Positions 10,701 through 64,000 of a DNA stretch of 64,000 bases are shown here, piece by piece (the stretch's first letter is position 1; the number at the start of each line of letters is the position of its first letter). Source of the DNA: Nostoc sp. NMS2 (GTDB lineage Bacteria > Cyanobacteriota > Cyanobacteriia > Cyanobacteriales > Nostocaceae); the NCBI RefSeq assembly GCF_017115105.1, contig NZ_JABXKH010000058.1:1-64000 (forward strand), written 5' to 3'. The notes under the pieces were generated by a model. It did not search any database. It worked only from the letters and a program-made list of their open reading frames with translations, and was not told the DNA's origin. The translations under genes and the position numbers were made by a program.

Positions 10701-11083
10701 CACCTTCTCAATGGTCAAGTGTGGAAGATTTACTAAATGGAAATAATGATGATTTTACTAGCTTTAATTTTAATGATGGAGAATCAAACAGTCAAAATTA
10801 TGAATTTCCTCATGTTTCAGAATCGCCACAAGTTTTTGCTAAACACCTTCCTTCACCTAGAGGCTTTGTTGATGGTGGAGAAGTCACTCTACCCGATATA
10901 TCTAGAGAAATACAACCTGTAACTGAGACAATAGATAACAAGTCTTTGTCTTCTGCAGAAGATAATAAAGATGATACGGCTAATCTGGAAGCTCTAGCCC
11001 GTGAAATTTATAATAGATTACGACAAAGGATAGAAATTGAGCGAGAGCGTCATGGTGGTTACTCAGGTCGATTACCTTGGTAA
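7775..11083 (+). CDS. Giant Ser/Thr-rich CIS protein with tape-measure-like motifs
   Basis: 1102 residues, mostly low-complexity Ser/Thr/Asn/Glu-rich and AT-rich at the DNA level. A Lys-rich patch lies at about 130-160. A 13-residue repeat block covers about 601-748. At about 806-850 comes ATGGYVTDSQVENRQQIAP followed by SDIVPAMLTPGEFVIN, the GG(x)V...IPAMLSPGEFVIN motif common in phage tape-measure proteins. A second, weaker copy (RGFVDGGEV) lies at about 1020-1035. The C-terminus ends RERHGGYSGRLPW, a motif shared with the small protein at 6988. Position between tube and adaptor genes fits a tape measure or tube-filling protein, though the hydrophobic segments typical of many tape measures are not visible. 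Inference only; no homolog recognised over the full length. Confidence 0.8.
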   Translation: MQIIQSPLGNNIHPLGVISSLSNFQRKISKKESHSLHSRSNFISAIQTKPPLVKSSKFLLSRQYEQSIQPLIGWDSWDTQDINSEFPLLESDVYNSITLSENSNITESGKDSLSKILPSSIETNPINGTSKVQKIKGKSKSKKTNKSQKPPVKKSKSRTKKLLTSSVAKNIEQFVEENNITVNLNENSFLESDEPLSIDANSETPRLQLDISSDNTTNQSDYVSNITPSIAASTSPTVEDKSTVVRNIATNNLQFNSELPSSDYSTDLSTTERIMPSQEKIEIDSNVSELVEDSPVEFSSDNNVAETFYPSSNFANNQQEIITETSELANISDVPVKKTSKKQDIKKHQIQKEFDDKSSTNQINLIQAKEVSPILNSPSPEDELPNANSNFDAIPVIKSDLILESTANDFVTNNAVADNSLTLTDVDDTPKLLHPLDTEDNIIGPYITTSNSGSSVTKNPIPVEQEIDSDLSHYVEKPTKNLTPKSPLLPENGESLKPLFFQEQGFLDPMKNQEIDSGFTSESPDSTLVQLTPTLANIENTPSLFSNSDSDEQLVTLESQAAMGVNVLDISANVSSVQRDSNFENTTSEFTESHSILAAPEITETPIITATSPEISEALVVSTTSPEIAETPTITAISPEIDEIPTITAISPEIAETSVVSASSIEIDEIPTITATSPEISEALVVSASSPEIDETPTITAISPEIVETPTITATFPEIIEALVVSASSPEIDETPTITAISPEIVEETSVFRKIIDKEQTGESENPEISTFADTWDNPDILENPTSLQDEVSTAPKVEQNAIAPKGYATGGYVTDSQVENRQQIAPSDIVPAMLTPGEFVINTRDAQKNLPLLHHINTGGTPQDIILPSLQTSNPTEPEETISRETPTKVDSFSDTSLQLKSIETDSPQIFNSLIPSSLGLNISKQKLSILNSPHHTLQNETIDVGESSPQYSSPPLIFRKANSTTNTSSQWSNTPSQWSSVEDLLNGNNDDFTSFNFNDGESNSQNYEFPHVSESPQVFAKHLPSPRGFVDGGEVTLPDISREIQPVTETIDNKSLSSAEDNKDDTANLEALAREIYNRLRQRIEIERERHGGYSGRLPW
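9575..10018 (+). repeat. 39-bp in-frame tandem repeats in the giant CIS gene
   Basis: Eleven units of 39 bp plus a partial one encode 13-residue repeats of the form EIxExPTITAxSP, alternating with a variant EIxEALVVSASSP. Units differ by point changes but keep length and frame, so the array is under coding constraint and can change in copy number. Confidence 0.92.
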
Positions 11084-11121
11084 GTTTTCATTTAAAAACT
11101 AATTTTTGGAGAACTATTAAA

Positions 11122-11685
11122 ATGGCAAGTCCAGCAATTATTGTTATTCAGAAGCGTCAACCGCAACTTGAAAAAGCAAAACTTGTAGCTTATAACAACG
11201 AAGCACCAGATATTGAATTAATGTTTAATCCTACAGATATTAGTTTTACTCGGACTGTTAAATGGGAAAGCAAGGATGGTAATAGAGGAACTACTCTCCT
11301 GCCGAAAGTAAACTTTTCTGGTGTTGAACCTTATAAGTTTACACTTAAACAGTTACTTTATGATACTTATGAAACGAAAGAGTCGGTGATGAAAAAATAT
11401 ATAGATAATATTAAAAAAGGTGTAGAAACTATCAGTAAAGCAACTGATAAACGCCCACCAGTTTATATATTTACATGGGGGAATGAATATTTTTATTGTG
11501 TGATCACGAGTTTAACCTACACTTTAAATATGTTTTTGAGTGATGGTACACCAGTCAGGGCACTAGTAGATATAGCCTTGCAAGAAGTAGATAAGAATAA
11601 TCTTCCTGGAGGACGGGAATCTGCTTCTAAAGGAGATTCTCGCAATTCAGATAAGAAGGGACAAAAACTGAATAAGCAGAAATAA
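11122..11685 (+). CDS. CIS tube/baseplate adaptor protein (Afp7-like), without LysM
   Basis: A 187-residue CIS_tube-type protein. Characteristic stretches are IELMFNPTDISFTRTVKW near residues 27-44, GVEPYKFTLKQLLYDTYE at about 66-83, and PPVYIFTWGNEYFYCVITSL at about 114-133 leading to GTPVRALVDIALQEVD. In related systems it joins tube to spike and often carries a C-terminal LysM domain; here the tail after residue 160 is only a short Lys/Ser-rich stretch. I choose ATG 11122 over the upstream GTG at 11077 because ggaga lies 10 bp before it and the family N-terminus begins there. A miniature element at 11700 separates it from the spike gene. Confidence 0.88.
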   Translation: MASPAIIVIQKRQPQLEKAKLVAYNNEAPDIELMFNPTDISFTRTVKWESKDGNRGTTLLPKVNFSGVEPYKFTLKQLLYDTYETKESVMKKYIDNIKKGVETISKATDKRPPVYIFTWGNEYFYCVITSLTYTLNMFLSDGTPVRALVDIALQEVDKNNLPGGRESASKGDSRNSDKKGQKLNKQK

Positions 11686-11699
11686 TAAAGTGAGAAATT

Positions 11700-11884
11700 G
11701 GGATGATCCCAATGCAAGCAAATTTACCAAGTTAGCAGGTAGTCATTGCGAATGGAGCGAAGCGGAATGAAGCAATCGCAGCATCTAGACTTTGCGATTG
11801 CAACTCTAAGAGACGCTCCGCGAACGCTTCATTTCATTACGCTCACAATCACAAAATATGTCTTTACACATTTGGGATGCTCCC
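11700..11884. mobile_element. Miniature inverted-repeat element, copy 1
   Basis: 185 bp bounded by gggatgatcccaa on the left and ttgggatgctccc on the right (inverted repeats with two mismatches). Both sides carry the same 8 bp, gagaaatt (11692-11699 and 11885-11892), a perfect target duplication. There is no transposase gene. The interior contains an aatggagcgaagcgg-type repeat and differs from copies 2 and 4. It lies between the adaptor and spike genes. Confidence 0.9.
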
Positions 11885-11952
11885 GAGAAATTAGTATTTG
11901 TTTTGTTATTAAAGGTTGCTCTAAACATTTCATAAATTATCAAATAATAGTC

Positions 11953-13686
11953 ATGCCTCCTAAAAAAAGCCTTTATTTAAGCGAACCTAAAATACAGATA
12001 GATGGAAAACAAGCTTCTCCTGAATTAATGAAGGATGTGTTGCAAATCACAATAGAAGAAAGCCTTCATTTGCCAGCAATGTTTACGCTAGTAATTCATA
12101 ATAGCTATATTCCCACATCTGACCGACCAGAAAACAAGGCTTGGCGACATGAGCAGTTATTTAAAATTGGGAAAAAAGTGAAGTTAGGTTTTACTTCTAG
12201 TACTACTCTAGATAATAATTTTCAAGAGGAAGTAGAAGAATTCCTGATTGAAGGCGAAATTACAGCAATGGAAGTTCACTTCAATGAAAAATCTGAAGCT
12301 GATATCATTGTTCGTGGTTATGATATTTCGCACCGTCTACACAGAGGTCGTTATAATCGTTCTTTTTTAAATGAAACTGATAGCGGAATAGTCAAGAAAA
12401 TAATTCAAGAAGTAGGTATAAGACCTGGTAATATAGAGGCAACGGGTGAAGTTCATAAGTATGTTTTCCAAGAAAATCAAACTAATATGGAATTTTTGCG
12501 AGAAAGGGCTGCTCGCATTGGTTTCGAGTTATTTATTACAGAGGAAAAATTAAATTTTTGTAAGCCAAAAACTCAAGGAGCTTTATCACTAAAATGGCTA
12601 GTTGATATTAATAAATTTAGTACCCGCGTTACCAGTGCCGAACAGATAAGTTCTGTGGAAGTACGCGCTTGGGACTATACCCAGAAAAAATTGATTAGTG
12701 GAACAGCCAAGAAAGAGAAGCAAATAACCGAAACGGGTAATCGGCTAGGAAGTAGTACCAGTACTGCATTTTCTAATCTGAAGTCTCCCAAAATGATTGT
12801 TGTAGATAAACCTGTTGCCAGCAAAAAACAAGCAGAGACGATGGCTCAGGCTTTGTGTGATGAACTAGGAGGAGAATTTGTTTACGCAGATGCCAAAGCA
12901 GAAGGGAATCCTGAGATTCGTCCTGGACGGGTTATTAATCTTGAGGGTATGGGCGATCGCTATAGTGGTAAGTATTATGTTACAGAAACTCGCCATTTCT
13001 TCAGTCAGCGCGTTTATGAAACTGATTTTAGCGTCCGGGGACTCCGTTCTGGTAACTTATTCACAACTTTATCCCCAGAAAAACGTCTACAGCCATCTGA
13101 GACTTTATTGGTGGGAATTGTAACTGATAACAAAGACCCAGAGAAAATGGGCAGAGTAAAAGTCAAGTTTCCCACTCTCACAGAAGACCATACAAGTGAC
13201 TGGGCGAGAGTTGTAGCTGTGGGAGCAGGCCAAAACAGAGGTTTCGACTGTTTACCAGAGGTAAACGATGAAGTCTTAGTAGGTTTTGAACATGGGGATA
13301 TTCACCGTCCTTACGTCATTGGTGGGGTATGGAACGGGAAGGATGCGCCACCAGAAAAGGTGGGTGATTCTGTTACAAGTGGTGTAAGATTACGCACCAT
13401 TAAGACTCGCGTTGGTCATGTTCTACAGTTTGTTGAAGAGGATAAAGGCAGTAGTAAAACTGGTATTCGTGTAGAAACTAAAGACGGTCATAAAATATAT
13501 CTCAATGATAGTCAAAGGTGCATAGAGATTGAAACCAAAGGCGGTCATAAAATCAAAATGGACGACATGGGTAAATCTGTTTCAGTCAAATCAACAGGTA
13601 ATATGTCATTAGATGCTGCCGGAAATATAGACATTTCAGCTAACGGCACAATTACAGTTAAAGGTGCATTGATTCGACTTAATTAA
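11953..13686 (+). CDS. VgrG-like CIS spike protein
   Basis: A 577-residue hub/spike protein (Afp8/VgrG type). The N-terminal half is the phage late-control-D/gp27-like hub (RGYDISHRLHRGRYNRSF, NMEFLRERAARIGFELF). At about 375-470 comes the gp5-type OB fold (VGIVTDNKDPEKMGRVKVKF, then VNDEVLVGFEHGDIHRPYVI). The end is a short beta-helix-like needle with KGGHKIKMDD and SLDAAGNIDISANGTI repeats. The open frame extends left to 11746 through the miniature element, so I start at ATG 11953, where the conserved N-terminus begins. The PAAR-like gene follows and should cap the needle. The stop lies beside a heptamer array. Confidence 0.93.
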   Translation: MPPKKSLYLSEPKIQIDGKQASPELMKDVLQITIEESLHLPAMFTLVIHNSYIPTSDRPENKAWRHEQLFKIGKKVKLGFTSSTTLDNNFQEEVEEFLIEGEITAMEVHFNEKSEADIIVRGYDISHRLHRGRYNRSFLNETDSGIVKKIIQEVGIRPGNIEATGEVHKYVFQENQTNMEFLRERAARIGFELFITEEKLNFCKPKTQGALSLKWLVDINKFSTRVTSAEQISSVEVRAWDYTQKKLISGTAKKEKQITETGNRLGSSTSTAFSNLKSPKMIVVDKPVASKKQAETMAQALCDELGGEFVYADAKAEGNPEIRPGRVINLEGMGDRYSGKYYVTETRHFFSQRVYETDFSVRGLRSGNLFTTLSPEKRLQPSETLLVGIVTDNKDPEKMGRVKVKFPTLTEDHTSDWARVVAVGAGQNRGFDCLPEVNDEVLVGFEHGDIHRPYVIGGVWNGKDAPPEKVGDSVTSGVRLRTIKTRVGHVLQFVEEDKGSSKTGIRVETKDGHKIYLNDSQRCIEIETKGGHKIKMDDMGKSVSVKSTGNMSLDAAGNIDISANGTITVKGALIRLN

Positions 13687-20414: not shown

Positions 20415-20632
20415 AAGCAAAAAAATTAAGGGAAGATACGCGATAAATCGCCGTCTCTACAAAGGGCTAATTATTGTAAAGACGGCGATTTATCTCGTCT
20501 TTGCGATCTATAACTTTCATCAAAAAACCTTATCCGAACCGTATTGAGGGTGGGCATTGCTGCAAATAATATTGCACCCATTCCACATTTTTTTGCCAAT
20601 GTTTATCCCATAACCCACATTCTGCATCGTAG

Positions 20633-20792
20633 GGGAGCATCCCAATTTTGCCAAAAGACACAGGACTGGGGCAAAAAACCTGTACAAACCTCTTCCCTTT
20701 GCGTTCTTGGCGTCCTTGGCGGTTCGTCATTTCATTCTCGGTCTAAGTCCAAACACCGTATAATAATAAACTTGCACATTTGGGATGCTCCC
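20633..20792. mobile_element. Miniature inverted-repeat element, copy 2
   Basis: 160 bp with perfect 13-bp terminal inverted repeats gggagcatcccaa / ttgggatgctccc and a perfect 8-bp target duplication catcgtag (20625-20632 and 20793-20800). It has the same length as copy 4 at 63749 and a closely similar interior. No coding capacity of its own. A TATAAT box (20759-20764) near its right end faces the methyltransferase gene, which starts 55 bp further on. Confidence 0.95.
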
Positions 20793-20846
20793 CATCGTAG
20801 TGGGTTTGTCCAATTGATTATCAATATAGCGGTTATCAGTTTATCT

Positions 20847-60877: not shown

Positions 60878-60927
60878 GAGCATGGGGAGTGGGGAGTGTA
60901 GGATGAGGGGGATGAGGAGGAATTATT

Positions 60928-61223
60928 GGGAGCATCCCGTTTTGGCGGATTGCCCTCAGACTAGCAGTCTGGGGCTATACAAACTAAACCCGCCTTTCCT
61001 TCTGTACGAGAGGCTGCGCCAACGGAACGCTACGCGAACGCGGGTTCAGAGAGTCCGCGTTCGCTCTTAGCGTTCTCGAAGAGTAGGCGGACTTCGTTTG
61101 TGTAGCCGCGTAAAGCCAACTCTTAGAGACGCTGCGCGAACGGCATAGCTTCGCTTAGCGCGTCAGCGTGCCGGAGGCTCTATTCCAATCGCCCGGTGTT
61201 TCTTGCCATTTGTGGATGCTCCC
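60928..61223. mobile_element. Miniature inverted-repeat element, copy 3
   Basis: 296 bp from gggagcatccc to ggatgctccc, flanked by an exact 8-bp duplication gaattatt (60920-60927 and 61224-61231). The interior includes other interspersed repeats (an aagtccgcc-type block and an inverted agagcctccggcacgct block at 61129-61185), so this copy is longer than the others. It lies downstream of the HEP island. Confidence 0.88.
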
Positions 61224-61500
61224 GAATTATTGAATAAATCTCTCCCTTGTCTCCCCCCTCTTCCTTGTCTCCCTTGTCTCTTTTCCATGCACAATGCCCA
61301 ATGCCCCAAGCGGCGGGGCGAGATATAAAGTGATTTAAATGTTAATAGCTTGACAACAAGTGATTATATGAAATAATTATCATCTATCTTAATAGAGATA
61401 CCTTGATATCTCTCAATAGGTTTTCACATTGAAGAAGAATTCAGAAGTCAAAATTCTGTTTTGATAAAACTGTTAAATTATTTAAGTTTTACGATCGCGC
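61224..61500. other. Intergenic region upstream of the channel gene
   Basis: 277 bp containing a ctcccttgtctccc tandem stretch, a ccatgcacaatgcccaatgc block and an AT-rich part that should hold the channel promoter. No gene. Confidence 0.55.
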
Positions 61501-63084: not shown

Positions 63085-63748
63085 TTTAGCACTTTCTTTT
63101 TAACGATTGCGAGTTGGTGTTATATCAGACTTGAAGAAATTTGAAAGCTAGCAAAAATTGTGTCCATTCATACAACAAAACAGTAATGATTGTTATAGGC
63201 TTGAAAAGCCCTTTACTTTTATACTTTTGGCGAAACTTCACCGCCAAAAAAGCACCAGAGCGATAGGAAATTACTTATGACCAAATGCGATTGATACTTA
63301 TCAAACGTAAATCTGGTGAAGTTGAACATATCCCTGTCAGCAGCATAAGTGACTTCCTACGCTCTGGTTATCTCTTTTAACAAACTTCGGCGGGTTTAAG
63401 TTTAAGTCCCCGGCTTCTAAGAAGCCGCAAGTATGTAAGTCTTGTTCTAAATCCCCGTTACAAAACTGTACTTCCTCTCTTCGTAGCGGGGCGTAGCCCA
63501 TTCCGACTTCCGACTTCTTTAATACTAGTTTCGCCCACGAACGCGAGTGCGTCTCGTAGAGATGGGGTGTTAGCGTAGCGGTACGAAGTACAATTTTAAA
63601 CCAATATTCATTACCCATTCGTACACAATTCATACTGAATTCTGACTCCTGAGTTCTGAATTCTTCTTATTGAAACAATCGGGTCTAAAACCTCGCCTTT
63701 TAAGGCGAAAAGTTTTTGGAGCGGGGCATAAATCCCCGTTACAAAAAC
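63085..63748. other. Repeat-rich intergenic region after the channel gene
   Basis: 664 bp. A short possible frame lies at 63285-63380. The rest has a ccccggcttctaagaagcc hairpin (about 63409-63428), cgtagcggggcgtagccc repeats and gcggggcataaatccccg blocks. No convincing gene. Confidence 0.65.
63285..63380 (+). other. Short possible reading frame, unassigned
   Basis: MRLILIKRKSGEVEHIPVSS then ISDFLRSGYLF and a stop (31 residues). Codon use looks gene-like, but there is no clear ribosome site and no family is recognised. It could be a remnant of a larger gene. Confidence 0.25.
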
Positions 63749-63908
63749 GGGAGCATCCCAATTTTGCCAAAAGGCACAGGACTGGCACAAAAACCCTGTA
63801 AAAACCTCTTTCCTTGGCGCTCTTGGCGTCCTTGGCGGTTCGTTATTTCATTATTGTTCTAAGCCAAAATCCCGTATAAAAATAAACTTGCACATTTGGG
63901 ATGCTCCC
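63749..63908. mobile_element. Miniature inverted-repeat element, copy 4
   Basis: 160 bp with 13-bp terminal inverted repeats gggagcatcccaa / ttgggatgctccc and an exact 8-bp duplication acaaaaac (63741-63748 and 63909-63916). The site before insertion is visible: the same target sequence (cataaatccccgttacaaaa then acggcctcctg) stands uninterrupted at about 63970-64000 with only one acaaaaac. Closely similar to copy 2 at 20633. Confidence 0.97.
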
Positions 63909-64000
63909 ACAAAAACGGCCTCCTGCCTCCGAATTCTGTTGGTTCTGCTAGCGCGAGTAGTTTAATGGGCATAAATCCCCGTTACAAAAACGGCCTCCTG

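Follow-up and report, generated by a model that had tools for sequence, protein, structure and literature searches.

Miniature elements in a Nostoc genome with ends like those of ISKra4-family insertion sequences

The transposase superfamily to which the ISKra4 insertion sequences (IS) belong is described in PMC3942029 as having 8-9-bp repeats and 18-39-bp ends. As set out in the accessible part of this paper, the ISAzba1, ISMich2 and ISKra4 groups together form p-MULT 4; the ISMich2 group has a two-frame transposase, and all ISMich2 elements are plain IS. Cyanobacteria also harbor MITEs, short elements with inverted ends that lack a transposase of their own. One of these is Nezha (Zhou 2008), with which the elements reported here have in common that they are cyanobacterial MITEs. 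By description, our elements resemble the MITEs of Anabaena sp. 90, which according to the available text of PMC3542288 measure 77-541 bp, are intergenic in 132 of 147 cases and had no parent found in their genome. A 187-nt MITE of Microcystis, as presented in the accessible portion of PMC11448079, is similar in size, has 8-nt repeats and was assigned its parent, an ISL3 element, through matching ends, but it differs from our elements in these ends and in the transposase family. A MITE family connected with ISKra4 does not appear in the accessible part of PMC9208149, and a literature search for the end sequence described below returned only papers that are unrelated by title.

Here, we describe four elements from a 64,000-nt stretch of Nostoc sp. 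NMS2 DNA (contig NZ_JABXKH010000058.1, positions 1 to 64,000; in the following, the window), which corresponds to contig C118 in our analysis of the draft host genome (G000; 7.57 Mb, 183 contigs). Very probably, these elements are MITEs, non-coding and ending in copies of the terminal inverted repeats found in insertion sequences of the ISKra4 family (Mutator-like DDE). The observation is real; it is ordinary in kind and adds a new member.

Copy 1 (11700-11884, minus strand, 185 bp) starts with GGGATGATCCC and lies between two exact repeats of GAGAAATT (11692-11699 and 11885-11892), with a contractile-injection tube gene on one side and a VgrG-related gene on the other; these contractile-injection-system genes (CIS_tube, VgrG-related) surround it at 11077-13686. 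Copy 2 (20633-20792, plus strand) is bordered by exact repeats of CATCGTAG (20625-20632 and 20793-20800) and precedes a C5-cytosine methyltransferase gene. Copy 3 (60928-61223, plus strand, 296 bp), with the terminus TGGATGCTCCC and exact repeats of GAATTATT at 60920-60927 and 61224-61231, has a glycosyltransferase gene and a mechanosensitive-channel gene as neighbors, and past the same channel gene follows copy 4 (63749-63908, plus strand), flanked by exact repeats of ACAAAAAC (63741-63748 and 63909-63916). The initial annotation had picked out these four stretches by their shared ends and 8-bp direct repeats, all of which proved exact. It had also described copies 2 and 4 as similar elements of 160 bp, and both indeed have this length, agree at 143 of 160 positions and carry ends of the ISKra4 group-i type defined below. 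Its statement that no copy encodes a transposase is borne out by the open reading frames: those of at least 70 aa that cross the window copies are either start-codon extensions of the neighboring VgrG-related and methyltransferase genes or frames of 75-77 aa, and the 75-aa frame in copy 3 gave no match in a Pfam scan. Folding of copy 2 as DNA (z = -1.41) revealed nothing notable, its paired ends aside. A repeat of about 115 bp adjoins copy 2 (20433-20547) and has dozens of matches in the same-genus genomes that were searched, and a local direct repeat, GGGCATAAATCCCCGTTACAAAAACGG, surrounds copy 4 (63726-64000).

The exact 11-bp end, GGGAGCATCCC, occurs 78 times in the host genome (37 forward, 41 reverse), compared to 11 occurrences (6 + 5) of the reversed pattern. 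In the window alone, with two mismatches allowed, it was seen 19 times against a mean of 8.5, and since this enrichment is only mild, we built our case on pairs of ends with duplications. For this, the surroundings of all 78 ends were examined for partners within 400 bp at a minimum length of 60 bp; the search covered elements with at least one exact end, and a duplication-bearing partner was favored when several were possible. The result is a set of 35 elements, 73-296 bp long and bounded by inverted ends, one of them truncated by a contig start. Perfect duplications flank 30 of the 34 elements with both flanks, 21 of them 8 bp and nine 9 bp long, whereas a shifted-position control with fixed pairs produced 0 matches in 1,972. 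Among the remaining four, L038 and L050 match in 7 of 8 positions, and L015 and L017 have no duplication. The genome-wide search for paired ends and their flanks, which the initial annotation had proposed as a check, therefore shows that the duplications are not due to chance. The 8-bp length that it had given is perfect in all four window copies, but has to be widened to 8 or 9 bp for the genome as a whole. Unpaired ends account for 22 of the 78, several of them at contig ends, and some are probably chance matches, of which the reversed pattern implies about 11.

A scan of 38 loci from relatives brought up 17 more short elements with perfect duplications (15 of 8 bp, two of 9 bp). At L188 of a relative (1501-1549), we observed a 49-bp element with two exact ends and a perfect 9-bp repeat, which perhaps comes close to the shortest mobile size; as it falls below our 60-bp minimum, very short copies are undercounted here. 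The starts of contigs C7, C9, C19, C23, C125, C126 and C168 and the end of C178 in the host assembly lie in or at element copies, so these repeats probably broke the assembly.

The interiors define three subfamilies. Subfamily A, which includes copies 2 and 4, comprises 16 copies of 160 bp that are 87.5-100% identical (14 of 120 pairs are fully identical) and one copy of 215 bp, while subfamily B has seven members of 116-161 bp. The nine complete members of subfamily C (73, 160, 160, 161, 185, 209, 210, 256 and 296 bp) are copy 3, which is the largest, and L040, L049, L055, L008, L001, L015, L009 and L033. In their alignment, sizes climb from 73 to 296 bp through inserted blocks, several of them near 24 nt, of repeats that are seen elsewhere. 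Copy 3 is an expanded member of this subfamily. Part of its extra sequence (61107-61161, plus strand; query positions 180-234) is present as a standalone, dispersed segment elsewhere in the genome with 95-98% identity, and an 18-bp motif of this extra sequence recurs without mismatch at 12 places in the genome, one of which lies within copy 1, compared to 0 in the control. This extra sequence resembles the small dispersed repeats of cyanobacteria (Elhai 2008, as cited in the accessible part of PMC3116915). Copy 1 has close relatives in other genomes, L271 (97.5% identity over 157 bp) and L272 (92.2% over 179 bp). Copies 1 and 3, whose interiors the initial annotation had called unrelated, are therefore not lone oddities.

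Uninterrupted versions of the target exist for copies 1 and 4, out of three copies compared (1, 2 and 4). The surroundings of copy 1 were compared across at least 53 genomes of the genus, and 29 relative loci were aligned: in nine, the junction is uninterrupted and contains the 8-bp target once; L254 preserves GAGAAATT exactly, and the remaining eight carry one or two changes to it. In two further loci, the alignment begins no earlier than 15 bp left of the junction, and 18 show no alignment across it. Copy 4 lies in one unit of a local repeat; the other unit, 59 bp downstream (63967-64000, plus strand), is, by sequence comparison, an uninterrupted paralogue with an intact target, a single ACAAAAAC at 63984-63991. 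For copy 2, no locus in the relatives joins both flanks, and conservation of the right flank there begins about 40 bp past the element. The window elements hence have the features by which MITEs are recognized: they are short, with inverted ends, without a transposase and with target-site duplications, and copies 1 and 4 have an empty site.

The initial annotation had further suggested looking for a full-length IS with like ends, and such elements are found in relatives, with a transposase of the ISKra4 family. We fetched 30 loci with the extended end and read the 15 that lack a near partner for frames. A single one of them, L165 from G122, encodes an ISKra4-type transposase after its end; frames are also present in L184, L185 and L187, and those of L184 and L187 gave no match in a Pfam scan. 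Further full-length elements were then recruited by a protein search with the L165 transposase. Because they were found through protein similarity, that these elements are ISKra4 follows from the selection itself, and it is the ends and duplications that provide the independent result. We examined 24 loci, chosen from 38 (L189-L226), and found matching ends with a perfect duplication in 13, but not in L189, L192, L193, L195, L200, L201, L205, L219, L221, L224 and L225. L191 is the same place as L165, and one record underlies both L192 and L221.

The 13 elements represent three groups. Group i consists of L191 (1773 bp), L223 (1773 bp, annotated as ISMic1 family) and L194 (1784 bp, with two stops in the transposase frame), each with an 8-bp duplication, and of L222 (1775 bp) with a 9-bp duplication; its sources are a plasmid of Fischerella NIES-4106, a plasmid of Allocoleopsis PCC 7113 (annotated ISMic1), G122 and L194. 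Group ii (L196, L197, L198 and L226) measures 1172-1173 bp and has 8-bp duplications, and group iii includes four elements of 1166-1184 bp with 9-bp duplications (L206, L207, L208 and L213) and one of 1218 bp with an 8-bp duplication (L210). The transposases are 46-56% identical between groups. Two from group i and one each from groups ii and iii were scanned with the ISKra4 profile NF033572 (cut-off 205 bits) and scored 277.8 (L165), 266.3 (L223), 277.8 (L198) and 276.4 bits (L206). In group i, the transposase is encoded in two frames, the second at -1 to the first (L165/L191 and L223), with a run of 8-9 T in their overlap (L191, L222 and L223). Together with the profile, this arrangement is a likeness to ISKra4-family IS, and the two-frame transposase with a -1 shift is also found in the ISMich2 group. 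Group i departs from that group in one respect: a second frame follows the transposase, of 136 aa in L223 (2953-3363), where it has no Pfam or NCBIfam match, and annotated genes similar in size and place occur in L221, L222 and L224, whereas ISMich2 elements, as described in the accessible part of PMC3942029, are plain IS without further genes.

The MITEs and these full-length elements, like ISKra4-family IS in general (here of the ISMic1-like type), have the same type of ends and duplications of 8-9 bp. The left ends of copies 2 and 4 agree at 23 of 24 positions with ends of L192 and L222, and their right ends at 20 of 24 with group i. At copy 1, the right end, GGGAGCATCCCAAATGTGTAAAGA, matches its counterpart in the full-length L191 at 23 of 24 positions, while the left end, GGGATGATCCCAATGCAAGC, is of the kind seen in subfamily B and reaches only 16 of 24 with the best surveyed parent. 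Similarly, the 'AATGCAAGC' end of subfamily B has no good parent in the survey (17 of 24 at best). The left end of copy 3 agrees at 22 of 24 positions with L198 of group ii, its right end is tied between groups ii and i at 19 of 24, and right ends of its subfamily-C relatives, such as L049, match L226 of group ii at 23 of 24. Judged by these comparisons, the ends match those of full-length ISKra4 elements whose duplications have the same lengths, weakly at the left of copy 1 and with a tie at the right of copy 3. Group i (1.77 kb, ISMic1-like) fits copies 2 and 4 as well as copy 1 at one of its ends, and group ii (1.17 kb) fits the left end of copy 3.

In a blastn comparison with 16 full-length elements, the matches listed lie mostly at the ends and extend up to 33 bp; internal ones among them cover 20 bp between copy 4 and L192, and 12 bp in copies 1 and 3. 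Among these matches, none marks the MITEs as internal-deletion derivatives of the parents. In contrast to ISKra4-family IS, the window elements are 160-296 bp long and lack a transposase, and what they have in common with the parents is end sequence only. The idea that only the ends matter survives as far as this parental similarity is concerned, but fails in part, since the subfamilies are told apart by their interiors and the parental group indicated by copy 3 differs from that of copies 2 and 4.

In the host assembly itself, we found no intact parent with these ends. What remains is a 135-bp stub in L034, which is identical to the first 134 bp of L165, i.e. the group-i left end, in 127 of 135 columns and stops just short of the transposase start at 137. 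Nested remnants are seen at this place (L034 3186-4011), where the ISKra4 left end is followed by an IS982-like fragment and then an IS1634 fragment. The ISKra4 profile matched the host in two places, L189 and L190, neither of which resembles the parent. L189 is open over its full length, scores 378 bits and is the sole host transposase over the cut-off; it has no GGGAGCATCCC-like end in the stretch searched, and its one match among the group proteins is L207, with 25.7% identity over 179 aa; L190 is a remnant with 22-28% identity to groups i-iii. A UPF0236 (PF06782) profile found no match in the host, but its control had no match anywhere either. As the host assembly is a draft, an intact parent may lie in a gap, and given that none with these ends was found, we infer mobilization in the host from the relatives.

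The ISL3 and IS1595 families both make 8-bp duplications, and it was an element of one of these families that the initial annotation had proposed as the parent. ISL3 would also have a precedent in the Microcystis MITE with its ISL3-type ends and 8-nt repeats (PMC11448079, accessible part), yet the one published Microcystis end that we compared starts with GGCTCTTCG, unlike GGGAGCATCCC. Moreover, the full-length elements found with our ends and duplications carry ISKra4-type transposases instead, and the 9-bp duplications in 9 of 34 elements fit the Mutator-like group, all of which makes an ISL3 or IS1595 parent very improbable. Two other candidates come from frames located behind the end itself, and we give them hardly any credence. 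In the host, an IS982-like fragment and an IS1634 (DUF4277) frame come after the GGGAGCATCCC end at L034. Its first 135 bp, however, match the ISKra4 group-i left end, and the rest therefore represents later insertions or fusions. Relatives of both elements also show different ends: those of IS1634 have ends of their own, CCCACATTCCGCAC, with 6-bp repeats in three of eight loci examined (the other five are without clear ends), and for IS982, where 54 of 85 relative loci were examined, 37 have ends resembling ACGTGAGTTCGAC, 23 of the 37 with a 7-10-bp repeat. We rejected IS1634 on account of these ends and 6-bp repeats and IS982 on account of its ends, and a parent of either kind is next to inconceivable. 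The same holds, with virtually equal force, for an IS4/5-type parent, as the single end in L176 might suggest: 153-719 nt inward from this end is a frame that matches DDE_Tnp_1 and DUF4096. This is one case only, and the stretch searched contains no right end with a duplication; a neighboring or inserted IS is therefore the likelier source of this frame.

Finally, the elements could be intergenic repeats that do not depend on an IS transposase for movement, in the manner of REPINs or of the 'type II' MITEs of Anabaena sp. 90, which bear this name because no IS in that genome shares their ends (PMC3542288, available text). The host assembly, with no intact parent that has such ends, would be in line with this. 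The 8-9-bp duplications, the empty sites with a single target and the full-length relatives with like ends all contradict it, and we regard this explanation as highly unlikely. Mobilization by an ISKra4 transposase is the reading we prefer. That the copies are miniature, non-autonomous elements moved in trans, as the initial annotation had it, is supported at the sequence level by the shared ends, target duplications, empty sites and full-length elements with like ends. The transposase, supplied from elsewhere in the cell, would bind ends starting with GGGAGCATCC, mobilize the element and join it to a staggered 8- or 9-bp cut in the target, which would leave a duplication of that length. The spread may have been driven by a former ISKra4 element of the host's own, or by one arriving on a plasmid.

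A search of 145 genomes of the family found the extended end in 73, with 0 control hits among the matches listed, and 11 of the 145 contain at least 10 ends (G000, G002, G006, G067, G083, G089, G092, G108, G123, G124 and G142). Among these 11, G067 and G083 have a group-i transposase and G108 one of group ii, and the other eight, including the host, have none at E <= 1e-60 in a search of 192 genomes that by implication includes all 145, a count weakened by the single query and by draft assemblies. This suggests that the MITEs outlast their parents. In plasmid searches, copy 1 is found in four records, with 32-48% covered, and a subfamily-C copy in two, with 34-41% covered; copy 4 has no match there, and a phage search with copy 3 gave none.

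It is conceivable, though we advance it only tentatively and with some doubt, that the MITE pool is an orphan load shared between genomes, kept mobile by any arriving ISKra4 element, sometimes plasmid-borne, and outliving each of them. Such a pool would be usable by any of these elements because the GGGAGCATCC core is, with small changes, common to three ISKra4 transposase lineages. For cyanobacterial MITEs that seem parentless within one genome, the result supplies a transposase family, and it shows that a search across relatives can resolve them. The elements could serve to mark insertion history, and they offer a test case for the persistence of MITEs after the loss of their parent.
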